In this document: positions 458-50,700 of the stretch, piece after piece
How the letters are laid out: every line of letters starts with the position of its first letter
Numbering within the stretch: position 1 is the first letter of the stretch
NCBI RefSeq assembly: GCF_963576615.1
Contig: NC_088708.1
Span: 6,138,001-6,202,000, forward strand
Source of the DNA: Watersipora subatra
Taxonomy: Eukaryota > Bryozoa > Gymnolaemata > Cheilostomatida > Watersiporidae
Direction of reading: 5' to 3'
DNA length: 64,000 nucleotides
Notes under the pieces: model-generated
The model's input: only the letters and a program-made list of their open reading frames with translations
Told to the model about the DNA's origin: nothing
The model's database searches: none
Made by a program: the position numbers and the translations under genes

Positions 458-3400
458 TCTGACCAGAGCATATCCGAGCACTCAGTGGATCTTCTATCAT
501 CCATCATGGAGAGCGGCGACACGACTCCGCAACACGATGCCCATTTATTTGACTCCAATTGTAAGATTTGCATCGGCAAGCAGGCTGCTCCTTCTAAGGC
601 GGACCTTGAGAAGGCGAGCAATCGAGTAAAAGTGTCACACGAAGTCAGCAGGTCAGCCATACGTTCTTCCAAGGAAAGCAGCAAGGAGGAACTTGATAAG
701 GTATGGGATTGTAAGGCTTTATTTAGTGGTTCTCCGTGGTGAACATATGACTAAATGAAGTTGTGATGTATTTTCTTTAACTAGTAATTTCATTTCTAGT
801 TTAGCCTGGAGTACATTCTATGTTTAGCATGAAGTTATAACTCTCTCAGCGCATGTTTAATGTGTCAGTACTGTACCAACCCTTTGAGTATAGTCCATCA
901 GTTTAATGTGTCAGTTCTGTACCGACCCTTTGATTTTAGTCCATCAGTTTAATGTGTCAGTACTGTACCGACCATTTGATTATAGTCCATCAGTTTAATG
1001 TGTCAGTACTGTACCGACCCTTTGATTTTAGTCCATCAGTTTAATGTGTCAGTACTGTACCGACCCTTTGATTATAGTCCATCAGTTTAATGTGTCAGTA
1101 CTGTACCGACCATTTGATTATAGTCCATCAGTTTAATGTGTCAGTACTGTACCGACCCTTTGATTATAGTCCATCAGTTTAATGTGTCAGTACTGTACCG
1201 ACCCTTTGATTATAGGTCATCAGTTTAATGTGTCAGTACTGTACCGACCCTTTGATTTTACTCCATCAGTTTAATGTGTCAGTACTGTACCGACCCTTTG
1301 ATTATAGTCCATCAGTTTAATGTGTCAGTACTGTACCGACCCTTTGATTATAGTCCATCAAAAATGAGTTAGAGGATCTTGAGAAAGAAATAAAGATCTT
1401 TGAAGCGGAAGATAAGATTATAGCTGAGAAGCTGGCGAAGCGCCGACACTCTCACCAGGACACAAAAAAGCGTGTTCGGGTACAGGAGAACAACTCTCCA
1501 GGAGACGAGCCTGCAGCCAGAACACATTCTCCTGGCACCCCACCGCTACCTGATCTGTCCTCACCAACTCCTGTCGTCAAGAAACGTGGATCAACTCCAT
1601 CAGCTTGGAAAGGTTTCATAGATGCTCCAGAGATTTCGTGCAAATTTTTCACCACCGCTCATGGGGTACACGGTAACTCGGACTGCCTCAAGACGGTAAG
1701 CTCTTGTACCACAGTTGTTGATTATCTTGACTCTTTGGTGCAGGTGGTGAAATCGATCGGAAGCAGTTTAGTTATTGTCGGTTTTACTTATAGGATCTGC
1801 CTGACTCTCTACAAATAGTTGGCCGGATTCATCCCAACCAAGTGTGGGAGTATATTGGCCAGCTGCGTCACACTCTGTCTCGGGTGCGTATGGTTAAACT
1901 TCCTGTTGAACATATTCCTATTGTCAGTTGTGCGTAACAGTATATCTATTCATATCATCTCTAAGGCCGTGAAGGTCGTTGCTGCATTTTACATTGACTA
2001 TTGGCATGATCCTTTATGTTCATGGTAGTACTAGCTGTCCTAGTAAGCGGAAGGATGTTATATTTCACAGCAATTTTTATTCTAATCCCAATTTATCTAT
2101 GCGTTTTATCGTTTGAAGGCATTACTTGTGGCACAAATAAGGCTTACTAAAACTTGCAAATAAGCTCATTGCGAGGTTTAGTTATATTTTCTTATTCGCG
2201 TCATCAAGGACTTTTTGCACAAGCAAACTCTCCATAGGCAAAAGTTCTCAAGTCTGATTGTATTTATGTGGTTTTTACTCTATTGAGCCACTTCATGCTT
2301 AGCCAGACGTTCACAGACTACTTACTAGTGTGAACTGGCATTTCACCTTCAATTTTATGAACTGAGTATAGATTGGATTTACTTGTAACACCTCTTCATG
2401 TGCTTAAAGCACATAAATTACTTAATTTTTTATCATATATTTCAATACATCAGTCTTGGCTATTGATTGAGCCTATATTCAATACACAAAGAATAATAGA
2501 ACTATGAAAAACAGGGTGTCAAAAGTACATCCTGCGATAAAAAAACACTTGGTTGCGTTCCAACAATGTGATGTCATAATTATTATTTAGCCTTAGGTCG
2601 TCGATCCCTTTTGCTGCCATTGAGGCTGCCTTTTTCTGTGACAATCGGTGTTGTTAAACCCAGAGAGCGCTAATAATAAACTAAGATTCTAGGTAATCAA
2701 CAATGCCCAGGATCGTGCTAACGCCCAACCAATACAAACAAATGTTCTGGGTTAATTAATTATGCTTCAATAAATATACTGTCGTTGATAAAGGTAATGA
2801 AATCACATCGATTAAATTGTGACCTGCAGTGGCATGGCTATAGGACTATATGTCAATTGCACTTCTGCGAGATCACGCAATGCTTAAAATTAATTAGTCT
2901 CAGTCGTGCCCCTCAACATCACAATAAAAAGAGAGGGCTAGTGCATAATATCATCGGGAAAACATAGTATGGTGCTTGGAATCTGGGTTATTTATCATAG
3001 AAATAATCTGTACATTGAGAGCTAATGGCACTGATTCCTTTGTCATCTTCATTGGTTCTCTGGGGTTGTCCTACCTTCGCCTGCCACTAGCGTCATTATC
3101 GTAGTTGATAAATATAAGCGGTGAGCAATAGAATAAGCGGTAAGAGCACACAACACCGAATATGAAAATTGTGATGTCACAATTTTCAAGCCTATGCCAT
3201 TGAACATTTCTGCGGTAGAGCTCTGGGGAAATCCTATAAACACTAACCAATTTCTGTCTCACCATCTCCAACAATGGCTCATTTGAAAGCCATCATATTG
3301 AAGAACCTGAATAAACTGAAACAGTACGTATGTAATTGATGTGCTTTAAATAAATTAGTGTTAAAATAAGCAGAAAACCTGTTTAAAATTAATTTTTTTG

Positions 3401-6400
3401 ATGTTTCTTTGGCAATGTAATACATTAGTTATTAATCTAGTCTAATGTACGGCAGTTTCATGATGGCGGCGATTAACTGTTCGTTTTTGAGCTTTTAAGA
3501 GCTTGTGATCACGTTATCACATATTTTGCATCTACATCACTACAGAGTAAGACATGGTGAATCTTTTCATACCAAATCACTGTAATGTGAATTTTGTTGC
3601 AAGTCAACCTTTAAGAACCAAGGCACATTTATGATCAACTTTCTTTCTTTACAACCAACAACCATCTGTATGACAGATAACCTGTAGGCCACAGCACATC
3701 ACCAGCAACCATCTGTATGACAGATAACCTGTAGGCCACAGCACATCACCAGCAACCATCTGTATGGCAGATAACCTGTAGGCCACAGCACACCACCAAC
3801 AACCATCTGTATAACAGATAACCTGTAGGCCACAACACACCACCAACAACCATCTGTATGACAGATAACCTGTAGGCCACAACACACCGCCAACAACCAT
3901 CTTTATGACAGATAACCTGTAGGCCACAGCACATCACCAACAACCATCTGTATGACAGATAACCTGTAGGCCACAGCACATCACCAACAACCATCTTTAT
4001 GACAGATAACCTGTAGGCCACAGCACATCACCAACAACCATCTGTACGACAGATAACCTGTAGGCCACAACACACCACCAACAACCATCTGTATGACAGA
4101 TAACCTGTAGGCCACAGCACATCACCAACAACCATCTTTATGACAGATAACCTGTAGGCCACAGCACATCACCAACAACCATCTGTACGACAGATAACCT
4201 GTAGGCCACAGCACACCACCAACATTTTGTTGCAAGCCAACCTTTAACAACTTGTTTTTCAAACCAAACTAGAATCTAAATTGTGCTGTATAAGTTGATT
4301 AAAACTAAACTTATTGCATGACTTTACCAATTGCCATCTATCTTCTATCTGAAAATAGAAAGACCCTTACTGTTTGCTCACTTGAAACATTCCTAGCCAG
4401 ACCTGGTCCTACTGAACTGGCTGTGTTGTGTTAGATGTTTAGGTAAATACTACAAACCTACACATGTCATGACTGTCTAGTTCATAGAACATGGCCTGTA
4501 TGTTTTCTATGGTTGCTGATGCCATATTTCAGGAAGTGATCTTGATAAGGTTTTCTGCTGTGAATGAGGAGGAGAAGGCGTCGTATAAAGTCTACTTTAA
4601 ATATCTCTCAGAAAAGAAAAGGTTTGGTGTCGTCGGAAATGGGTCTAGTGACATCAAGGACATGTACATCATACCCCTACCTAGTCATGAATCCTTGCCA
4701 GTCGCCCTCAAACCATATCGTCATAAAGGTAATGTTTGGCTTAATCGTGGTGATTTTTTATTTCCTTGCGTGGGGATATTTGTAAATGGTTTGGGTGCCA
4801 ATCGCTTGTCTCACAATTGTAATTACAATAGTTGTTGCGGTCCATGACAATAGAGAATATTCATGACAGTATGATTTATCTGCTGCTACGATGCATCGTC
4901 ACAAAATGTGTAACTTGAGATCTTTGTCAATATTTAAACTTTGTAGGCTTTGATAATTGACCAACCGCTGCATAAAGGTCTGATTACACACATCGAGGAA
5001 ATGCATAGCCAATGTGTAGCATAAATATTTGCTCTTCTTACACCCTTAAGGCTGGTTCAGGCTATAATGCCGTTTGTCAGCGTTTCCCTTTCAGAATTCA
5101 TCGTCGATTATGTGATCCGTAAATCGATGGCATCGACGAAGCAGCGGGGATACGTCAGCAAAGTTTGCAGCTGTCAAACTTTCCCGATATTTTGACGAGC
5201 ATCGATGACCGCCTTTCGAATGTGAACCATTTCGGCGATGGTAATTCGCAGTCGCTGATAGAGTGATTTATTCATATCCGTTTATGATAGTCGCTGCGGG
5301 ACTAGTTTTTTATTCCAGCACGCGAAAACAAAAAGGTTTCTTCGCGAAAATTTAAAAAGATAAATGAAAACACTATATCATGGAGTATTTCTTGAGGCAA
5401 GTGCGGATGGATATGTGATAGTGTGAACATGGTTATCATCGACAGCCTTTAGACTAGTAAATGACACGTTGCCTAAAGTGTGTGAAATCCATGACATCCT
5501 TATTGGATTTTCCATTACTGTTACTAAAGTATTGTCAACATGTTAATCATCCATTATGGATCTTCAACAATTTATCATAGTAAGAATGTTTGCGCAGCTA
5601 TTTGCACTGCTAGATTTGATTCAAGCGAAAAATCGCTACAGGCTAATGTTTTGCCTGAGCCAAATTAAAAAATAATATGAGTTCATGGTATGAATCATTC
5701 TGGAAACAATTTTGGTTCTCCATAGATTTAGTCATGTGAAGAATTATCTCAAAAGTATCAGGGACAGTTAAAATTTACACTAGTGACCTTCAAATACCTG
5801 TTACACGTCCATAGAGTTACATTTGTCTATAGAGGATGTAGTTTGCGTCAAGTCCTGTCATTGTCACTCAAAACCAATTCTCAAATTAAATCAGATACTG
5901 TTGTAAATGAATTAAATGGAATCAAGATTGTATGTCTAAAGTAAACTTTGTTAGATGCCTTAGTTTTTTTCTCTGCCGAAGTAGATCGGGATGTTCAACA
6001 GATTTCGACAGTGTATTTTTGACATGTATTTATTTGTCTGTGAATCGTCCTATAATCAATATAGTAACTACTCTGTCGATCACTCATAGTTGAAATCAGT
6101 TTGTACTTGACAACTCACCAATCGTGTAGCTCCATACATATGTTTTGCATATGCAAACCTCTGAGTGTTATGCTTCCGAAAACACCTTCGTGTCGAGTAT
6201 CTTTTACACTGTCCATACGAATACAAAAATATATCATCTGAATTATCAAATATCACGTAAATTAATGACATAGGATAATTTTAATTTAGTCAAATGAAAT
6301 TAATTTTTATTCAATGTCAGGATTTCATTAATGAAAGAAGATTAATTTATAAACAATTAAGTTAATAGCGAAATCATGAGTAGTATCATAGAAAGGTTTT

Positions 6401-9400
6401 TACATTATTTTGTATTCAAAGTCTAAACCTCTTATTGTGATTGTGTTGGTAATGGATGAAATTTGTTAGAAGTCAGCATTCTTTAAAAAATATAGGAAAT
6501 TCTAAAACACACATTCGCTCTAATCGATACTGTCAGTTATGTCATCTCTATCGTTATTTGTGCCAGTGCTCGCTGATGATAATCGCCCCAACATGCTTGT
6601 CGGCCTAGTCGTAAGAACAAAACTGAAGCGAACTGGCTCTCAAGACCCACTTTATGGATCTAAAAAGTCTAAATCAGACGAGGATGAGCCATACGAGCCG
6701 CCAGGCATTGATGAGTTGCTTCCTGCAGAGCCAGAAACACCATCTCCAATGACCACCCCAAATAATGCTGAACCATTTGACATTAAAAGTGAGTTTGTGT
6801 TTTTACTGCTTTAGCCAGCATTTTTGAGGTTCAAAGGAAAAGTATGGCATGAGGCCGTGTTTATGATAGCTATAAATTCTACTGATAACTACATTGTCAT
6901 AAGCGTGGTGTGACATGCATGGTGAGGCAGATTTGGTTATCTCTGATCATCAGAAAGTTTTGATGATATATCCAGTCTTTATAAAACTTGACAGACCTTC
7001 ACTCATGCTTTAGCTGAATCAGTCAACTTCAGAAATGGGCATGTCATGTGTGGTGCAATCATGTAGAATATATCCTTGCGCTTTAGATGTTGAAGAGTAT
7101 GATCCATCGCAGCCTCTCGTCAGTCTGTCAGTTGGTAACTCGCAGGAGGGTCAGGAAGAGAATGAAATGTATGACCCAATTGTGTCAGCCTACTCTCTAG
7201 CTGACCCCAAAACTCTCAACGCAGAAGATGTGCCTGGTAAGTTCCATGATTGCTATGAATCCTAACACTGAGTTCGTCATAAATGAATATATGTTGTGAT
7301 TTCAGTGATATCACAAGTGTTATTTCAGTGTTATATGTTATGTATTTCAGTATTATCACAATTATAATAGTTCATGGTAAAACTTTATTGATTACTTTAT
7401 TGATAAACTGTATTTTGATTTAGTAACCATGGAGTTGCTTGACCACAGTCAAGTTGTAAATTACTATTATTGTCTAGTTACCATAAAATCTGTATTTGAA
7501 TGCCACCTCTGTTTGAGCGCCACTATGGGAGAAAGGTTGAAAAAAAGAGCGCCACCCTTTAATGGAACGCCACTTCTATTTGAATGCCACTTTTATTTGA
7601 CTGATACTTTTTCACACCCTTAATCTTTACGAACCCATAATAGCAAGTGATCAGTTGAAAAGTGTCCACAGAACTGTATTAACAAGGACTCGATTACATC
7701 AATTACAATTAATTCTTTCTTTGTTTCTGTTTGTATCAAAGTCCATTTTCCAAGTCTTTAGGTTTTTTCATTAGAAGCGTTGCTTGCACCACCATAGAAA
7801 TAATTAGTAATTGTATTAGGCTAATAGAAGTTCATTTTTTAACGCGGTCTTGATACTTCAATGTATGTGGGATAAAGTTTTCGCATTTGCTATGAAAAAT
7901 GTGTTACTACATACTTTGAGGCTAACATTTTGAGGCTATTTTTATTACACGAGGTTTCTTTTTATTTGCGCTAGAAGTTTCTATTCAAAATAGCATCGCG
8001 TAGAAGTTTTTCTCTGCTAAAAATTGTTTGGACGCTAATATCGACTAGCTCAGCTGTGCAGAAGATGGATTGAGGTCAGAAGACATTGTGGAAGGTGTTG
8101 AACAGCCAGAAGAATATGAAATGGTTTTAAACAGTAGCAGCAATCAGAACTCGACTGGCTGAGCAAATGGTGCTAATATTTTTGTTTTAAAAATGTTAAT
8201 ATTTGTTTTGAATTGTTAATTTTCATTGCTGCATATATTGTAATTATGGTTTGTTTATGTCACTTGTTTTTGAATATATATTTGTAGCGTTTGATAGATT
8301 ATTATTATAAAACTTATAAATTTGCATATTTATAGTAGTTGCTCTTACATCATGTTTTTTGTTCACACTTTATGCTCAGTTTGTACCCTCAGTTCTGTGT
8401 ATTAAGTTGACTGTTGTTGGGTGTAGAAATATAAGGGCACAAACGATAGTGACTGCTACAAACGATAGTGACTGCTAACAAGTTCTTGACGAGAATAACT
8501 TTGGCAACACAGCTCAGTTGTAGTATAATGTGCTTACAGGTGTCAGCAAAACAGGTTTCTTTTTATGTTTGAACTACTAATCAATCAGCCTTTGATATTT
8601 ATTTGCGCTATAACTTATTCATTTCATAATTATTTCCATTCGATAATTTGAAACGATCAAGTGAGCTTTGGATTTGTTGTCTCATGCATTACTGCATTGT
8701 CTCATGTTTTACCACCAGAAAATTTCAGTACTGTGTAGCTTGTTGATTGACTCCATAATATGACGGACTAAATAAATTCTTTGTCTGTAAACGTGAATCT
8801 GATTTGAAGTAGATAAGACATCCTCGAGTGTTTAAACAGGAAAGCCACCAAAGGTCATAACCTTACATACTTTAAGTATATTATATATATATAATATATA
8901 TATAATTATAATAATACATAATAATATAGTATATATAATATTATATAATAATGTATTAATTATATTCAAGGTGGCGCTAAAGCTGAAATCTAAAGAGCCT
9001 CACCTTGCTTAGAAAGTGAGGCTCTTTAGATTCATTAACCAAACTGTTTACAGATGATTGTTTGGTTTTCATAAATACATCTCAGTTTTACCAAAGTTAC
9101 ACTTATCTTTTTAAACACCTCCAGTCAATGAAGAAACAATTTCTTATGCGTTACGCAGTTATAATTATAGGTGCCAAAAATGGTCATCATAAATTATTTA
9201 TGACATACCAGAACGTATTCATTTGTTATTGTTTTGGTCCTGCCACTCGTATCCCTCCCTTTGTATCTATATTATTGCTCGTGAGAGGGTGAAAAATTCT
9301 CTCTGTTGAGTTCCTATAGAGCCTGTTGCACAACATTTATTGCTGTCAAATATATAGGCAAAACTTTGCGTGACCTCACTTCTCTTGTTAGATGTGGCGA

Positions 9401-11184
9401 GACATTGTTTAGCCTAATGTCTCGTTAAGTGTCAAGTGTGAATAGTTCTTAAAATATTTGAATACAGGATTTTACTCAAACAAAAGCAAACAACATTGTT
9501 GTGTTGAATCTCTCTTTTTGCTTGCTGAATTTCTTAGCAACAATAATTTCTGTCATTGCAAACAAAGGAGGCCACGAAAATAAGTTTGTGTTGAAAACTT
9601 GCAGGCGCTGCACCCTATTCTCCTGGAGAAAATGATGCCGAAGATGGAGACGAAGCATATGATCCTGGCTCCTTACCCATAGCAATCACTCCATCTCAAA
9701 GTGAGCCTCTTCCTCACAAATCACCATCTACTAACCCATACAGAATTGCAGCTCCTCTACCTGCAGAGCCAAGCGAACCATATGATCCTATGGATACGCT
9801 GAATGCAAAGTCTCCACCAATGCCACGGGAGCCATACAATCCAATGAGGACTTCACCACCAGCTCCTGATAAACCATACAACCCTGCTGCTGCATTATCC
9901 AGGGCATTTCCATCCCACCCAGAAGAACTATATGATCCTGCTGCGCCTCTGTCCCCGCAGAAGTCAGGTCGTGATCAGAGTTCTTCATCTCATGCTTCCA
10001 TAAGTTTACTGATGGTAAGGTTATATATTATTGAATTGTGTAGATAGTTGAAAAATTGTTGTATACTGCTGTACTCTCTTGCTTGTCAAGTGTCCATTGG
10101 TACATTAAATACTTTTTTATAGGATTCTGACTTGACTGCGCAGCAAAGAGCTTTGAAGGAGCTTACGGCACAGGTCGAACTACAGAAAAAGCAACTGCAT
10201 AAAGCAAGGCTTGCACAACAGATTTTACCTATGCAATCAGAGACAGTCAGTCATCAGCTTGTCTCAGGGCAGTCATCACAACTTTTGACATCCAGTACTA
10301 CTGACATATCTCAGACTGAAATAACGAAGCAGTTTCTTACTCAATCTATAGAGTCCAAAAATACACCTGTTGCACCACCTGTATTGGCCACACCAAAGGA
10401 GTCTAACCTTGACCCCAACATTCCCATTGCAGAAAGTGAGAGGCCTAAAATTTCGTTTTCATTTTCTGGTATACGAAATGTGTCGCATTCTAGCCAATTC
10501 CAGAATAACGAGTCTACTAACCATTCTGGGCCCCCACCTCCACAAAATAAAGTTCCATTGCTAGCTCCACCACCTCCTCCTGTTAGCCTTTCCTCCAACA
10601 ATCTTCTCTCACCAGCTTCACACAGGCCTCTATTGTCTGATCCTCGAGTTGCCAGTGGTCCAGACCAAACCCATAGTAGAGATCGATACCCTGGAGGTGC
10701 CAATGATCCAGACCAAACCCATTGTAGTGATCGATACTCTGGAGGTGCCAATGGTCCAGACCAAACCCATAGTAGAGATGGATTCCCTGGGGGTGCCAGT
10801 GGTCCAGACCAAACCCATAGTAGAAATCGATATTCTGGGGGTGCCGATGGTCCAGACCAAACCCATAGTAAAGATGGATTCCCAAGGGGTGCCAGTGGTC
10901 CAGGCCAAACCCATAGTAGAGATGGACTCCCTCGGGGTGCCAGTGGTCCAGGGCGAATCCTTATCAGAGATGAAGATATGGGACAGAGAGACTTTAGAGA
11001 AAATTATGGTGATAGGAGAGGGTGGCAGGACAGTTATGATGGAAGAGCTCATTGGAGAGCGCCGCCACCTTCCAGAGATGCTGGCTATCGTCAGGGTATG
11101 CCTGGAGAATATGATTATCACAATAGAAATAGGCGAGGTGGTTATGGCCAAGGACCTGACGAGAGATATCATAGGGATTATTAA
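458..11184 (+). CDS. DIDO1/PHF3-like: DIDO1/PHF3-family SPOC-domain protein, 3' part (8 exons)
   Basis: Coding exons: 458-700, 1354-1695, 1794-1883, 4533-4728, 6567-6788, 7087-7236, 9605-10014, 10123-11184 (TAA). All junctions are GT-AG and in phase, giving 904 residues plus stop; the 5' end lies left of the window. The first exon has the conserved HLFDSNCKICIG segment that follows the TFIIS-like domain in this family. Exons 2-5 form the SPOC domain (AWKGFIDAPEISCKFF, PNQVWEYIGQLRHTLSR, RFGVVGNGSSDIKDMYIIPL, LVGLVVRTKLKR). SPOC domains of this family bind phosphorylated RNA polymerase II tail, so a chromatin/transcription-elongation role is inferred. Exons 5-7 carry repeated Y-D/N-P motifs; the last exon has a 16-residue tandem repeat and an Arg/Gly/Tyr-rich end. 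No PHD finger is in the window. Assignment to DIDO1 versus PHF3 is unresolved; invertebrates may have one ancestral gene. Confidence 0.88.
855..1360 (+). repeat. 46-bp minisatellite, 11 copies, carrying a splice acceptor
   Basis: Eleven head-to-tail 46-bp units start at 855, 901, 947 and so on to 1315, differing by a few substitutions. The unit runs from GTTTAATGTGTCAGTACTGT to ATTATAGTCCATCA. The last unit ends inside the SPOC exon: exon 2 starts at 1354, so TATAG is the acceptor and TCCATCA are the first seven exon bases. Most units keep that boundary sequence. Confidence 0.95.
3445..3616 (+). repeat. Dispersed repeat, copy 1 (inverted relative to the copy near 63.8 kb)
   Basis: The stretch from TGATGGCGGCGATTAACTG through AGAGTAAGACATGG to TTTTGTTGCAAGTCAACC matches the reverse complement of about 63725-63920 at roughly 80 percent by eye. 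It is probably a non-autonomous transposable element. It sits in the long intron between exons 3 and 4 of the DIDO-like gene, just before a minisatellite. Confidence 0.7.
3661..4224 (+). repeat. 47-bp minisatellite, 12 copies
   Basis: Units of 47 bp beginning ACCATCTGTATGACAGATAA start at 3661, 3708, 3755 and on to 4178. Variation is mostly ATCACC/ACCACC, TGTA/TTTA and TATG/TACG. The array lies in an intron. It is bounded by near-identical 23-27 bp sequences (TTTTGTTGCAAGTCAACC at 3592, TTTTGTTGCAAGCCAACC at 4225) that are the end of the dispersed repeat at 3445-3616. Confidence 0.95.
5047..5290. mobile_element. MITE-like fragment (uncertain)
   Basis: The segment starts AAGGCTGGTTCAGGCTATAA, resembling terminal inverted repeats of small DNA transposons, and contains GC-richer sequence (ATCGATGGCATCGACGAAGC) unlike the surrounding intron. 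A matching opposite end could not be placed, so both boundaries and the class are uncertain. Around it, the intron between exons 4 and 5 of the DIDO-like gene (4729-6566) shows no gene. Confidence 0.3.
8877..9032. repeat. TA microsatellite followed by a perfect hairpin
   Basis: A TA-rich simple repeat (about 8877-8965) is followed by an inverted repeat with perfect 17-nt arms, AATCTAAAGAGCCTCAC at 8987-9003 and its complement at 9016-9032, with a 12-nt loop. It lies in the 2.4-kb intron before exon 7 of the DIDO-like gene. The rest of that intron (7237-9604) holds no recognisable gene. The stretch 7490-7600 repeats GCGCCAC/TGCCAC motifs and may be another small element. Confidence 0.8.
10657..10965 (+). 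repeat. Coding 48-bp minisatellite (16-residue repeat, about 6.5 copies)
   Basis: Within the last exon of the DIDO-like gene, a 16-residue unit (GPDQTHSRDRYPGGAN and variants such as GPDQTHSRDGFPGGAS) is repeated six times, then breaks down at GPGRILIRDEDMG. The unit length is a multiple of three, so copy-number change keeps the frame. Other frames of this array are also open; those reading frames are by-products of the repeat. Confidence 0.95.
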
Positions 11185-17400: not shown

Positions 17401-20400
17401 TTTTAATCTTGAGTGAATGTGTAGCATAAGAAATGCTTTTCAGCAATCTTTTTAGCTATGCCTCGAGCAGTGAAACCAGATCTGATTTTGTGAGCAATTT
17501 TACAATCTCAAATCCTTTTCTATAAAAATATCACTTGAAAACAGTAGATCTCAACTCTTACCGACAATCCATTGGTATTAAAATAAAAACATTTTGAAAC
17601 AATCAAATCAGGCATAATGGATCATTTATGTTTTAGATAATGACATTTAATAATTAATATTTGGGTAGAAACAGAAAACCTTACCACTAGCTACTTATTA
17701 TTATTGGCTGTTCCTGATTAAATTCTATAAACTAATGTTCCATGAAAACAACAAACTAGAAACAACAAATAAATTGCATGCTCACTTTCATTGCAATTTT
17801 AAATGTTAGAAAGTTATCCCCTGGGTAACAACCTAATTCTAGCCACCCAACTACCACACATTCTTACTTTATGGTGCAGTTTCACAAAGGTAGGAGGGGG
17901 TGCAGTCAGGGGTGCCTTAGTGAGCGTTGAGGTTGGCTTGCTGGAGCTAAGGCTGACAGTGTCACTGATTAGCGTAGATGCAGAACTTGAAAGTAAGTGG
18001 TTATTTATCTGCTGGAGACCTGGTGTTTGAACTTGTCCTGCTGTCAGGTCAGACAAGCTGTAGGTCTACAGATAAACAATCAATTGCATATTAACATGAT
18101 TTATCTTTTGTTCATACAAGTGGACAGGGATGGAAAGTTTACGGTTAATGAAATAGGAAGTATCAAAATGTTCAGCCATGAAGACGACTAAAATCAAGAA
18201 CCCTCTAATTGATCCAAGCAAATAAAAAATACAAAATCTGCGTTTAATCCACAGTGTCGCCTAAGGATGTCCAACCAATCATCTTCAGGAGTTTGAAGGT
18301 AAAACAGGAACGGTTCTTTCTAATAATGCTTACAACAACTCATCATTGCATAAAGTGCTTGCACTAAGAACCCAGGCAAGAAACAATACTGTGTAGTGAG
18401 TCACATAAACACATTTGTGACTTAGTAGGTTTCTGTTTCTACCTGCGGTGCAGAGCGTGCCACCACTTATACCTGATATATCAACAGCACAATAGACGAA
18501 ACGGCCTTATGCTAGCAATATAAATGGTTGACAGTTGACAGAATTTTAGTAAATAATATATACACTTTTGCGCAATGAGATTTGTTCATTTGATTTTGCT
18601 ACTTTCATCAATGCAACTTTGGCTATCCAATATTTCAAAAACTAAGTCAAAGAATAAGTAAGAAATAACCACTTTAACAACAAAATAGAGGTCAAACAAT
18701 AATTACCTTCAAGTAAACATACAAAGTTTTAAAAATTTTATGTTTAGTTCAATCTTCGTTATCTTGTTATTTAACAAAATGAGATTCGATACCAAATTAG
18801 CTCAATACTTATCAACAGCCAATGAACAAAAAGTTAACCTACACTCCTTACAAAAAGACTGAGATCGTACCTGAGGAGTTGGCACAGTGGGTGCAGGAGG
18901 GAGTATAAACTGTGACTGGAGATTTGGGTTGACTGTGCCAAGAATAACATACTGCTGAGGGGGGAAGTTGATGTGGACAGGAGGAGCTGGAGTCATTGGC
19001 TGATTTAGCAGTCTTTGCTGCAACTGGTGCTGAATCTGTTCTATATCTTGCTGAGTGAGCTGCAGACCTCCACAATTTACCTGCGATTAAATAACATGGC
19101 TAAGACCGATGTAGTCTTTCGATTAAAGTCTCTTTGATTTAATAGTCTCTAAATAATCATTCGATTTTTTAGAGCCAATCCTGTGTAGAACAAACATCAC
19201 ATGCTTCACACCATCTAATAGACCTTCCATGATAAAGTATGCCGATGATAATTAGCGAAAAGATAAAATTAATATTCAATCTTTAATTCCTCCTTTCCAG
19301 CCCCAACCTATATCACTTTTCGCATCTGATCTGTTTACAATTCCTATCCCCAACCTATATCACCTTTCTCATTTGTTCTGTCTACAATTCCTATCCCCTG
19401 CCTATATCACCTTTCTCACTTGTTCTGTCTACAATTCCTATCCCCTGCCTATATCACTTTTCACATCTGATCTGTTTACAATTCCTATCCCCTGCCTATA
19501 TCACCTTTCTCACTTGTTCTGTCTACAATTCCTATCCCCTGCCTATATCACCTTTCTCACTTGTTCTGTTTACAATTCCTATCCCCTGCCTATATCACCT
19601 TTCTCACTTGTTCTGTCTACAATTCCTAGCCCTTGCCTATATCACCTTTCTCACCTGTTCGGTCTACAATTCCTAGCCCTTGCCTATATCACTTTTCTCA
19701 CCTGTTATGTCTACAAATCCAAGCACCAACCTATATCACCTTTCTCACCTGTTCTGTCTACAAATCCTAGTCCCAACCTACATGTATATCACCTTTCTCA
19801 CTTGTTCTGTCTACAAATCCTAGCCCCTACCTATATCACCTTTCTCACCTGTTATGCCTACAATTCCTAGCCTCTGCCTATATCACCTTTCTCACTCGTT
19901 ATGTCTAGAATTCCAAGCACCAATCTATATGATCACCTTTCTCACCTGTTCTGTCTACAATTCCTAGCCCCTGTCTATATCCCCTTTTTCACCTGTTATG
20001 TCTAGAATTCCAAGCACCAAACTATATGATCACCTTTCTCACCTGTTCTGTCTACAATTCCTAGCCCCTGCCTATATCACTTTTCTCACCTATTCTGTCT
20101 ACAATTCCTAGCCCCTACCTCTATCACCTTTCTCACTTGTTCTGTCTACAATCCCTAGCCCCTGCCTATATCACTATTCTCACCTGTTCTGCCTCCAATT
20201 CCCTGATCCTTTGCCTTGCTTTAGCTCTCCTGTATAATTGCAAAGCTAGGACACACGCGCGCGCACACACCATTCTATCGAACTGAAAGGTAAGCCAGTT
20301 TAATAACTAATACTACCAGCCAACCGGTCAATAGAATTAATACACCCGACACTATTACCACTCGTGACTCACCACAGGAGGTTGAGGGGCTGGTACCACC

Positions 20401-44700: not shown

Positions 44701-47700
44701 ATATACCGCAACAGTTATTTGATTATTGGAACAAACGCCGAGTTGCTAAAATGATATGTAATTAGTCAAGGCTCCTCTACTACTTTTGTGAATAGTGTCT
44801 TGAAAAGTTGTGTTCACATCGCTATATGCATTTGACTTGCATATAATTTTCAGATTTAGTTTTATCGTCCAAGAAGTTGTAAAACTTATCACAGCTATCT
44901 AACGCTGTACATGTTCAACTTGTCTGCAAACAGTTTGGTCATTCATGCAGATGTGGAATCGGAAAATGTTGACATATCGGGTTTGAGCAAGGATCAGCTG
45001 AATATGATAGAGGCTGACAGCTTTTGGTGCATGTCAAAACTGCTCGATGGCATACAGGATAACTACACATTTGCCCAGCCTGGCATACAGAAGAAAGTGT
45101 CCGCTCTCAAGGAGCTCACTCATAGAATTGACAGTGGGTAACTTTGGCAAGATTCCCATTTTCCGCTTGCGTATTTATTAAGTCATGTCGCCGCTGTCTA
45201 TGTTTATCTCAAGTGAAAGCTTGCGGGCAATCTTAAAAGTTTTTGTTATTTATTACAATGTTTTAAATCATTACAAACATTTACTCATGTTGATGAGCAC
45301 AGAAATGATACTATTAAGCAGTGTAATACCAATAACAGGCAACTTACACCAACACATTGAGAACCAAGGGATAGAGTTCCTTCAATTCACCTTTAGATGG
45401 ATGAACAACCTACTGATGAGGGAGCTGCCCTTACGCTGTACAATAAGACTCTGGGATACTTACCTGGTATGCTTTGTCTTTATCTTCCTAGTTCAGTTTG
45501 TAGTCATAGGCATGCACTCAGGGAGATTATGTATATGTAATGCTTATCTATCTACTGATCTTGCTATCAGCATTTAATTGAATCTTTGTTTGATGAAATC
45601 TGAAATATTTATCTCACGTTTGAGCCTTTAATACTAAACTGTAAGTGCGCAGAAAGTTTCTTTGTTAGTTCTGAATGGGGAGCTCACAATTCTTCTATAT
45701 CTGGCTATTTTTATTCTAGCCCCCTTCTGTGTCGGTGCCAGCTAACACTCGAGTAATAAAACTGCATGTACATTTCGGTCAAGCATAGGCTGTGGCTGTG
45801 ATGACCCAACCTTTTTTAGGTAAAGCATAGTATGCAGTTCACACTAGGTTCGAAACTTGCGAGTGTCTAAAGGTCGAATTAGATCACTGATTTGGAGATG
45901 ACTCATTGCTGTTGTATTGAATCATCACCGAAACCGTGAAATCTACAATTGAAGAACATATTTACGACAAGTTTTTCCACTGCAATACAAAACAACGATT
46001 TTATAAAAGAAGAAAAATTAACAACACTCACAGAGCTAATTCAAGTAGTCCAACAAAACCAGTTAAACAGAATAAATGTCAAAATGTTCTGATCAGAAAC
46101 GTTGTTTATTAATCATCAGTTGTGTTTTGCTCGTTGGAATTCAAAAACCATAATGCTAAGCTTGGATGGAGGGTAAATACTGGAAATAAAAGACTGTCGC
46201 CGACACTGGGCTGGCCGCAGTCTAACCCTCCTGCCGAATCACCACTACAGTTGGCCGAACACACAACACACTCTGAAACAATTTTCATGGCCCCTTGTAC
46301 TTGAGCACAACGATGTTTTAATTAAAAACAATAAAATTGGTGAGTGAGTAATAGACAGAAATATCTACTTGGGTTCTCTCACGCATAGGCTGTGATTCAT
46401 GATGATCCAACCTTGTTTTAGGCTGAACCAGATGGGTTTGCTGACTATCATCTCTACGTATGCGCCGCTTTTCTGACAAAGTTCTCCAAACAACTCATTC
46501 AGCAGCAAGACTTTCAGGTAATGTCGGTATCCTAGCTTTACGAGTCGATCACATGAGAACGTGTGAACTGTATTTAGTCTGTATTTACTGCACTTGTTCA
46601 TCTTACTGCGTAATTAAAAGTACATTTCATTTAGTGTCTATTTCATTTTGTGAACTGTATGATTGAAAGTATATCTATTTCATTTTGTGAACTGTATGAT
46701 TGAAAGTATATCTATTTTATCTTGTGAACTGTATGATTGAAAGTCTGTCTATTTCATCTTGTAAACTGTATGATTAAAAGTATATCTATTTCATCTTGTG
46801 AACTGTATGATTGAAAGTATGTCTATTTCATCTTGTGAACTGAATGATTGAAAGTATATCTATTTCATCTTGTGAACTGTATGATTGAAAGTCTGTCTAT
46901 TTCTTCTTGTGAACTGTATGATTGAAAGTATATCTATTTCATCTTGTAAACTGTATGATTGAAAGTATGTCTATTTCATCTTGTGAACTGAATGATTGAA
47001 AGTATATCTATTTCATCTTGTGAACTGTATGATTGAAAGTCTGTCTATTTCTTCTTGTGAACTGTATGATTGAAAGTATATCTATTTCATTTTGGGAACT
47101 GTTTGATTGAAAGTATATCTATTTCATCTTGTGAACTGTATGATTGGAAGTCTGTCTATTTCATCTTGTGAACTGTATGACTGAAAGTATGTCTATTTCA
47201 TCTTGTAAACTGTATGATTGAAAGTATATCTATTTCATCTTGTGAACTATATGATTGAAAGTATGTCTATTTCATCTTGTGAACTGTATGATTAAAAGAA
47301 TGTCTATTTCATTTTGTGAACTGTATAATTGAAAGTATGTTTATTTCATCTTGCGAACTGTATGATTGAAAGTATGTTTATTTCATCTTGTGAACTGAAT
47401 GATTGAAAGTCTGTCTATTTCATCTTGTGAACTGTATGATTGAAAGTCTGTCTATTTCATCTCGTGAACTATCTGATTGAAAGTATATCTATTTCATCTT
47501 GTAAACTGTATGATTGAAAGTATGTCTATTTCATCTTGTGAACTGTATGATTGAAAGTATGTCTATTTCATCTTGTGAACTGTATGACTGAAAGTATGTC
47601 TATTTCATCTTGTAAACTGTATGATTGAAAGTATATCTATTTCATCTTGTGAACTATATGATTGAAAGTATGTCTATTTCATCTTGTGAACTGTATGATT

Positions 47701-50700
47701 AAAAGAATGTCTATTTCATTTTGTGAACTGTATAATTGAAAGTATGTTTATTTCATCTTGTGAACTGTATGATTGAAAGTATGTTTATTTCATCTTGTGA
47801 ACTGAATGATTGAAAGTCTGTCTATTTCATCTTGTGAACTGTATGATTGAAAGTCTGTCTATTTCATCTCGTGAACTATCTGATTGAAAGTATATCTATT
47901 TCATCTTGTAAACTGTATGATTGTAAGTATATCTATTTCATCTTGTAAACTGTATGATTGTAAGTATATCTATTTCATCTTGTGAACTGTATGACTGAAA
48001 GTATGTCTATTTCATCTTGTGAACTGTATGATTGAAAGTATATCTATTTCATCTTGTAAACTGTATGATTGTAAGTATATCTATTTCATCTTGTGAACTG
48101 TATGATTGTAAGTATATCTATTTCATCTTGTGAACTGTATGACTGAAAGTATATCTATTTCATCTTGTGAACTGTATGATTGTAAGTATATCTATTTCAT
48201 CTTGTGAACTGTATGACTGAAAGTATGTCTATTTCATCTTGTGAACTGTATGACTGAAAGTATGTCTATTTCATCTTGTAAACTGTATGATTGAAAGTAT
48301 ATCTATTTCATCTTGTGAACTATATGATTGAAAGTATGTCTATTTCATCTTGTGAACTGTATGATTAAAAGTATGTCTATTTCATCTTGTAAACTGTATG
48401 ATTGTAAGTATATCTATTTCATCTTGTGAACTGTATGATTGAAAGTATGTCTATTTCATCTTGTGAACTGTATGACTGAAAGTATGTCTATTTCATCTTG
48501 TAAACTGTATGATTGAAAGTATATCTATTTCATCTTGTGAACTATATGATTGAAAGTATGTCTATTTCATCTTGTGAACTGTATGATTAAAAGAATGTCT
48601 ATTTCATTTTGTGAACTGTATAATTGAAAGTATGTTTATTTCATCTTGCGAACTGTATGATTGAAAGTATGTTTATTTCATCTTGTGAACTGAATGATTG
48701 AAAGTCTGTCTATTTCATCTTGTGAACTGTATGATTGAAAGTCTGTCTATTTCATCTCGTGAACTATCTGATTGAAAGTATATCTATTTCATCTTGTAAA
48801 CTGTATGATTGAAAGTATGTCTATTTCATCTTGTGAACTGTATGATTGAAAGTATGTCTATTTCATCTTGTGAACTGTATGACTGAAAGTATGTCTATTT
48901 CATCTTGTAAACTGTATGATTGAAAGTATATCTATTTCATCTTGTGAACTATATGATTGAAAGTATGTCTATTTCATCTTGTGAACTGTATGATTAAAAG
49001 AATGTCTATTTCATTTTGTGAACTGTATAATTGAAAGTATGTTTATTTCATCTTGTGAACTGTATGATTGAAAGTATGTTTATTTCATCTTGTGAACTGA
49101 ATGATTGAAAGTCTGTCTATTTCATCTTGTGAACTGTATGATTGAAAGTCTGTCTATTTCATCTCGTGAACTATCTGATTGAAAGTATATCTATTTCATC
49201 TTGTAAACTGTATGATTGTAAGTATATCTATTTCATCTTGTAAACTGTATGATTGTAAGTATATCTATTTCATCTTGTGAACTGTATGACTGAAAGTATG
49301 TCTATTTCATCTTGTGAACTGTATGATTGAAAGTATATCTATTTCATCTTGTAAACTGTATGATTGTAAGTATATCTATTTCATCTTGTGAACTGTATGA
49401 TTGTAAGTATATCTATTTCATCTTGTGAACTGTATGACTGAAAGTATATCTATTTCATCTTGTGAACTGTATGATTGTAAGTATATCTATTTCATCTTGT
49501 GAACTGTATGACTGAAAGTATGTCTATTTCATCTTGTGAACTGTATGACTGAAAGTATGTCTATTTCATCTCGTGAACTATCTGATTGAAAGTATATCTA
49601 TTTCATCTTGTAAACTGTATGATTGTAAGTATATCTATTTCATCTTGTGAACTGTATGATTGAAAGTCTGTCTATTTCATCTCGTGAACTATCTGATTGA
49701 AAGTATATCTATTTCATCTTGTAAACTGTATGATTGTAAGTATATCTATTTCATCTTGTGAACTGTATGACTGAAAGTATGTCTATTTCATCTTGTGAAC
49801 TGTATGACTGAAAGTATGTCTATTTCATCTTGTGAACTGTATGATTGAAAGTATGTCTATTTCATCTTGTGAACTATCTGATTGAAAGTATATCTATTTC
49901 ATCTTGTAAACTGTATGATTGTAAGTATATCTATTTCATCTTGTGAACTGTATGATTGTAAGTATATCTATTTCATCTTGTGAACTGTATGATTGTAGGT
50001 ATATCTATTTCATCTTGTGAACTGTATGACTGAAAGTATGTCTATTTCATCTTGTGAACTGTATGATTGAAAGTATGTCTATTTCATCTTGTAAACTGTA
50101 TGATTGAAAGTATATCTATTTCATCTTGTGAACTGTATGATTGAAAGTATGTCTATTTCATTTTGTGAACTGCTCAATCTAGCGCACCCATGAAACACCA
50201 TATTGGTTTTCACAGAGCATTGATCTGTACTACTAGATTATTTTTGTGGGTAGTAATACTAGCTTAACATTTTGCAGCTCAAAGACATTTCTAGATATTC
50301 ATTCATTTCTACATTTCATTAGTCAATCATTCAACCCATAAACACAAAAGAACAGGTTAGGCTTGTGCACAAGTAGCATTTTTTGCATCATTGGAGTTGT
50401 TTTTTCTTGAATAATTATAACAAGCATTTTTGGTAGCAAGGATTATCATAACTCTTATTAAAATAAAAAACTCATTTTTACACAAAATGTAGTTAGTTAC
50501 CTCACGGCATTGTAATTGCACAAATATACACTATGATCAATAAAATTGAAGCGATCGATTTTCGTGTTCTCGTATTACATATAAAGCAAATCCTACCTCT
50601 GTGTTGTTATCTTTTAGTGAACTGTTTGTTTATATAAAAATCATTGCACTTAATACTGATTGCGATGAATGGAATTATTTCTCCAAGTGCGCTGCACGTC

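Follow-up and report, generated by a model that had tools for sequence, protein, structure and literature searches.

A predicted splice acceptor in a PHF3-like gene has been amplified, together with the first bases of its exon, into a minisatellite of eleven 46-bp copies at 855..1360 on the plus strand of the 64,000-nucleotide stretch of DNA analysed here (the window). In its anatomy the array corresponds to a mirage, a structure described from amphioxus. We consider it probable that the array is a tolerated mirage, of which the exon-proximal copy, with its acceptor at 1353, is the one spliced.

TRF returned a period of 46, 11.0 copies, 95% matches, no indels and a score of 935 for this array, confirming the minisatellite of the initial annotation in position, unit length and copy number. 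Each unit starts with GTTTAATGTG, ends with TATAGTCCATCA and consists of GTTTAATGTGTCAGTACTGTACCGACCCTTTGATTATAG followed by TCCATCA, that is, 39 intronic nucleotides ending in TATAG and seven exonic ones. Only 11 of the 506 bases deviate from the consensus; units 5, 7, 10 and 11 match it exactly, and two changes each are found in the distal unit 1 and in the inner units 2, 8 and 9. A 21-base segment of the unit has nine exact matches in the 783.7-Mb genome, all within the array (backwards control, none), and the stretch immediately downstream (1361-1900) is single copy. A protein-coding array was considered and rejected because of a stop inside it in the third reading register. False expansion during assembly is extremely unlikely: the locus comes from a single assembly and in one copy, but the units carry distinct, scattered variants, similar arrays occur at other genes, and the contig spans 79 Mb.

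The predicted upstream coding exon (458..700, plus strand, phase 0) lies in an open frame at 431-742, is preceded by an acceptor TCTTCAG located by eye at 451-457, and ends with GATAAG/GTATGG (slashes mark junctions). Splice sites were scored with matrices made from 25 of the 32 introns in our reference set, all located by profile in eight chaperonin genes (two further exon pairs gave none). On this scale the donor at 700/701 scores 9.0, within the 4.8-12.4 range of the 25 true donors. The predicted intron (701..1353, plus strand, 653 nt) has GT at 701 and AG at 1352-1353 and carries the array at its 3' end; its predicted acceptor, the TAG at 1351..1353 (plus strand) in the last unit, is itself an in-frame stop if read. 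The frame from 1354 is in phase with the upstream exon, giving the joined reading ...KEELDKSIKNELEDLEKEIK..., and the exon that it opens (1354..1695, plus strand) starts with SIKNELEDLEKEIK and ends with the start of a SPOC domain. Joined with the next coding exon (1794..1883, plus strand, DLPDSLQIVGRIHPNQVWEYIGQLRHTLSR), it matches the human PHF3 SPOC domain of solved structures at E 8.2e-12 (residues 84-139 of 144) and the Pfam SPOC profile at 5.2e-8; on its own, exon 1354-1695 does not match SPOC and gives only a CPP1-like hit below the cut-off (0.0014). The later part of the domain is found at 4521..4700 (plus strand; PF07744, E 1.4e-8 and 1.7e-11), and a TFIIS central domain lies upstream, at locus L010. 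From the SPOC match, the later SPOC exon and the TFIIS central domain we take the host gene to be PHF3-like and the boundary at 1354 to be well predicted. The SPOC exon named in the initial annotation was therefore correctly recognised, with the PHF3 match obtained once it is joined with its neighbour.

It is very unlikely that this gene model is wrong, with the exon starting at another AG (for example 1384, in frame) or with the exons not joined. The acceptor at 1354 does score low, at 1.7, a value that 16% of true acceptors do not exceed, but the in-frame candidates score lower still (1369, -5.4; 1375, -1.3; 1384, 0.8; 1396, -3.4), and the frame, phase and SPOC homology of the exon all fit. 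Probably within the same PHF3-like gene, a 48-bp repeat of 6.3 copies lies within coding sequence at 10650-10951 and gives 16-residue repeats such as GPDQTHSRDRYPGGAN. The upstream stretch L010 (~2440-6480) contains retrotransposon-like reading frames between 18-bp arrays (CACATCCATAATGAACCA).

The array extends into the predicted exon by exactly seven bases, and the boundary itself has therefore been amplified, in line with the alignment of unit ends and junction claimed at the outset; the acceptor TATAG with TCCATCA was likewise rightly placed in the last unit, where the frame is open from 1354. Ten of the 11 units repeat these first seven exon bases in register without alteration (unit 8 has two changes), and the junction 30-mer recurs at up to 29/30, with 10 places at 75% or more. 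The AG is also kept in 10 units, unit 9 reading TTTTAC, such that the junction dinucleotides are AG/TC in nine of 11, AG/GT in one and AC/TC in one. This leaves nine decoy acceptors at 892..1307 (plus strand), with exon starts at 894, 940, 986, 1032, 1078, 1124, 1170, 1216 and 1308, rather than the approximately ten first proposed, because unit 9 (1262) has lost its AG. A further 21 AGs recur within the units. Unit 8 (1216) reads TATAG/GTCATC; splicing there would rebuild an AAG/GT junction, a possible point of re-splicing.

This type of structure is already published, in amphioxus, where the original report on Adh is said to be that of Canestro in 2002. As described in the excerpted text of two papers (PMC3087553, PMC3902484), mirages are minisatellite-like tandem duplications of an exon-intron boundary, 5' or 3', in which many, not all, copies keep AG or GT, and the amphioxus genes that carry them include Adh3, the globins BflGb6 and BflGb9, PGBD5 and troponin C. 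The array at 855-1360 has units that span the boundary (39 + 7 nt, the last copy being the predicted boundary itself) and a splice dinucleotide in many, not all, copies (AG in 10/11). Both boundary types are found in the genome, the acceptor at 855-1360 and the donors at 19295-20202 and at loci L059, L060, L064 and L065, described below. In the same excerpts BflGb6 has units of 150-160 bp in three or six copies and Adh3 units of 10-72 bp, as compared to eleven 46-bp copies here, and the hosts are cephalochordates, whereas the present host is very likely a protostome; we treat lineage as lying outside the definition of a mirage. RT-PCR is stated to suggest regular splicing in amphioxus, with copy number differing between haplotypes (PMC3087553, excerpt), and the PGBD5 paper says likewise for other lancelet genes (PMC3902484, excerpt). 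Undisturbed splicing and length instability are thus reported for the amphioxus arrays. Among the open-licensed literature matches listed, no title or abstract opening describes a boundary-spanning minisatellite in a protostome.

Parts of this anatomy are shared with other known systems. Tandem repeats in human segmental duplications likewise place minisatellite units at exon-intron boundaries, and according to the available excerpt such repeats, half of them in coding exons, can form novel introns and alternative transcripts (PMC2812944), whereas 855-1360 did not make its intron. The dual-specific array of the polyubiquitin gene UBC also has tandem splice sites in a repeated unit; in the excerpted description, AGGT at its repeat boundaries can serve as donor or acceptor and the units are protein-coding (PMC10809524), whereas 855-1360 is non-coding and has AG/GT in one of 11 units, and so lacks the AGGT in each unit and the protein-coding units of the UBC type. 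Boundary-spanning tandem duplication is also a feature of the Rogers model, in which introns are gained by tandem duplication (as cited in the excerpt of PMC3087553). Intron gain of this type was rejected for 855-1360: AG/GT is found in 1/11 units, and with the other 10 lacking it and the donor at 701 outside the array, the array did not create the intron.

The tract of the real acceptor was initially described as poor in pyrimidines. This does not hold for pyrimidines as a whole, whose fraction at -20..-4 (0.65) matches the median for 25 introns from the same genome, and it does hold for T alone, with a T fraction of 0.35 (one of the 25 introns is lower and five are equal). Against the score of 1.7 for the real acceptor, which 32% of 2678 background AGs equal or exceed, units 5, 7 and 10 also score 1.7, units 2 and 4 score 2.2 and unit 8, with its AG/GT, scores 5.2; unit 1 (1.2) and units 3 and 6 (0.2 each) are lower. 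Since six of the nine decoys with an AG match or exceed the real acceptor in score, and three fall below it, the last copy cannot be picked by local splice-site strength.

Splicing to a decoy would add a multiple of 46 nt, as first proposed, and the frameshift expected from this is not the sole penalty: additions of 138, 276 and 414 keep the frame, yet also meet a stop. A stop follows 19-36 codons past the junction for each of the nine AG-bearing upstream units, including the frame-keeping units 2, 5 and 8, and for the AG-less unit 9; for the 21 further AGs of the array that were tested it comes after 12-29 codons. Among the array acceptors tested, only 1354 gives an open read-through. The sequence that follows each site also sets the real acceptor apart from the upstream copies. 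The first 60 nt downstream of the real acceptor contain seven all-purine hexamers with GA, versus none downstream of any of the 10 upstream copies, each counted over 46 nt and thus over 14 nt less; the purine fraction, over 46 nt at every site, is 0.65 for the real acceptor versus 0.37-0.43 for the upstream copies. This pattern fits exon definition through purine-rich enhancers, which may operate here.

A tolerated mirage, our preferred reading, would have been born by tandem duplication of 39 intronic and seven exonic bases across the intron-exon boundary, and would have expanded through unequal exchange or slippage. Of the copies, the spliceosome would then pick the exon-proximal one, with its acceptor at 1353, a choice that is itself predicted from the DNA. 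Exon definition may favour this copy through a purine-rich, enhancer-like exon start and through proximity to the exon's own donor, and the upstream copies would be tolerated because the real copy alone precedes the purine-rich start and adjoins that donor most closely. A transcript spliced to an upstream copy would meet a stop and presumably be degraded. Given that the AG has been lost in just one of the 10 upstream units, no strong purging of decoys is visible.

The same decoys could instead act as a splicing valve, used substantially and with their products lost to nonsense-mediated decay, such that array length would set the output of the PHF3-like gene. We regard this as unlikely. The six decoys that equal or outscore the real acceptor, unit 8 (AG/GT, 5.2) above all, would suit it, as would the early stop in every decoy product tested and the report, in excerpt, that human boundary tandem repeats can alter splicing (PMC2812944). 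On the other side, amphioxus mirages are described in the excerpts as regularly spliced (PMC3087553, PMC3902484), and the array, with one AG lost, carries no sign of selection for decoys.

A mirror-image array of 19.1 copies of a 47-bp unit lies in the same window at 19295..20202 on the minus strand and repeats the donor AACAG/GTGAGA. It starts inside a predicted 46-nt coding exon (20184..20229, minus strand), whose end GGAATTGGAGGCAGAACAG/GTGAGA is the first unit of the array and whose real donor is predicted at 20184/20183. This exon reads RAKARQRIRELEAEQ, and its phase fits that of the frame that follows (VNCGGLQL, from 19080). Approximately 19 copies of the exon end and donor run into the intron, some of them without GT; the junction 30-mer recurs at best at 28/30, with 15 places at 75% or more, and read-through past the predicted donor meets a stop after five codons (VRIVI). 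Other repeats are present nearby. The intron following the PHF3-like exons holds a 47-bp array of 12 copies (3654-4224) with TTTTGTTGCAAGYCAACCTTTAA on both flanks (by eye); the same element is seen by eye in both orientations at locus L057 (~860-900 and 1690-1750), which suggests a small inverted-repeat transposon. A 37-bp array of 96 copies spans 3.5 kb at 46635-50172 and starts, by eye, ~120 nt past a likely donor.

Minisatellites are common in this genome: 198 kb of it held 36 arrays, of which one is coding. In the chaperonin genes, three of 12 arrays lie between -12 and +30 nt from an exon edge versus 0.40 expected (P = 0.005). This distance was chosen post hoc, and the set of 108 edges includes three placed by eye and several defined by profile ends. 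Under the strict criterion of a start within an exon, one of the 12 arrays qualifies versus 0.10 expected (P = 0.10). At 75% or above, copies in the neighbouring intron were found for 0/64 junction windows and for 36/280 intron-interior control windows, the latter being searched over a shorter stretch, drawn from a limited set of introns and not independent of one another. This comparison speaks against a preference for boundaries, which in the chaperonin sample are thus no hot spots. Two candidate arrays were set aside. One, in a chaperonin gene on contig C11, starts 27 nt after the donor, and its junction 30-mer matches at only 20/30. The other (C7:2954857 onward, L057) has the end of a CCT4-like exon, GATGATATT/GTGAGT, within a 43-bp array and the boundary repeated at 28/30; it was left uncounted because GATGATATT/GTGAGT may be either a splice donor or the gene end.

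Genome-wide, three strong donors of the form MAGGTRAGT with gaps of 20-50 nt gave 2213 matches versus 257 for the backwards motif, and AAGGTAAGT triplets gave 798 versus 24, 33-fold over control; these counts are of positions and not of arrays, and most of the printed MAGGTRAGT list is one array. The AAGGTAAGT matches listed fall into 15 distinct arrays over the initial 56.4 Mb of contig C1, a density that would give ~209 per genome, and some of them have periods of only 13-15 bp. We inspected the exon-side edges of 11 arrays, namely the first three of the four distinct MAGGTRAGT arrays listed and the first eight of the 15 for AAGGTAAGT. Four of the 11 (L059, L060, L064 and L065) begin within an exon whose end coincides with the first donor copy. 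At L059 (G000:C1:1460301-1461300, minus strand) the end and donor of a DNMT1-like exon (DNMT1, 191 bits) lie in a 25-bp array, at L064 the end and donor AAG/GTAAGT of an NAE1-like exon (77 bits) are tandemly repeated, and at L065 the same is found for the end and donor AAG/GTAAGT of a coiled-coil-like exon. The exons of L060 and L065 are open frames with no Pfam match up to E = 1. Also at L059, a second, 26-bp array in the preceding intron ends no more than ~20 nt from the acceptor of the preceding DNMT1-like exon. The remaining seven (L061, L062, L063 and L066-L069) have no exon at the edge, which for L066 was judged from ~66 nt beyond the array in view. As all of these arrays, including those at the DNMT1-like, NAE1-like and two further exons, were picked only by a repeated donor motif, 4/11 is the share of donor arrays that lie on boundaries and not the share of boundaries that carry arrays. 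With seven of the 11 edges lacking an exon, mirages do not explain all of the donor excess, and some other cause must act too. A very long array at G000:C1:3480598-3483070 and beyond has a perfect donor, CAGGTAAGT, every 28 bp.

These data also bear on whether 855-1360 is an ordinary minisatellite of the intron that reaches the exon only by chance, in a genome without any boundary preference, which we consider improbable. Coincidence would be helped by the abundance of minisatellites (36 arrays in 198 kb), by the non-significant strict exon-edge test (1/12, P = 0.10) and by junction windows being repeated less than intron interiors (0/64 versus 36/280). It is opposed by the first seven exon bases, in register and unchanged in 10 of the 11 units, and by the same arrangement at the DNMT1-like, NAE1-like and two further exons together with the 33-fold excess of AAGGTAAGT triplets over control.

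If 855-1360 is a tolerated mirage, the same process may act at other boundaries of the genome, where, judged by the motif counts, its traces would be more visible at donors than at acceptors. The acceptor pattern TTTTGYAGG showed no excess, with 36 matches versus 29 backwards, 22 and 14 on the forward and reverse strands (control 2 and 27), and the 36 matches amount to six distinct arrays. By matrix, the probability that a real site fits is 0.041 for AAGGTAAGT and 0.018 for TTTTGYAGG; by direct count, 0/32 donors and 1/32 acceptors do so. The imbalance of donors over acceptors, as judged from the match counts of one acceptor pattern, fits a transcription-order filter: an excess of donor arrays would be expected because decoys after a donor come too late, while decoys before an acceptor are transcribed first. 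We raise only tentatively the possibility that boundaries recurrently become minisatellites throughout the genome, with donor arrays accumulating and acceptor arrays being removed, and that 855-1360 is a rare acceptor survivor in need of exon-start enhancers. If true, the array would be a natural titration of first-come versus exon-definition splicing.

A mir-2 cluster and nuclear-receptor matches make a protostome host very likely and speak against a lancelet. Three mir-2 hairpins lie within ~540 bp on contig C3, two of them with TATCACAGCCTGCTTTGATA, at 39-45 bits and thus each below the 45.5 cut-off, where one of 14 control genomes also matched. The nuclear-receptor DNA-binding domain has 64 exon matches in the genome; sponges have few such receptors, and a sponge host was likewise rejected. 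A GFP match was absent here and in the controls alike, and so carries no weight, and COX1 gave no match either. Clusters of mir-2 are listed as protostome in the excerpt of PMC3763532.

In the literature found, as excerpted, mirages so named are described only from lancelets. Mirages in a likely protostome, at conserved DNMT1-like and NAE1-like genes, suggest a general mutational process and no lancelet oddity. They provide natural series in which up to ~19 similar splice sites compete in a fixed order, and on which the rules of site choice (first transcribed, strongest or nearest to the exon) are directly testable. The imbalance between donors and acceptors, if upheld by real annotation, would be a concrete prediction of those rules.
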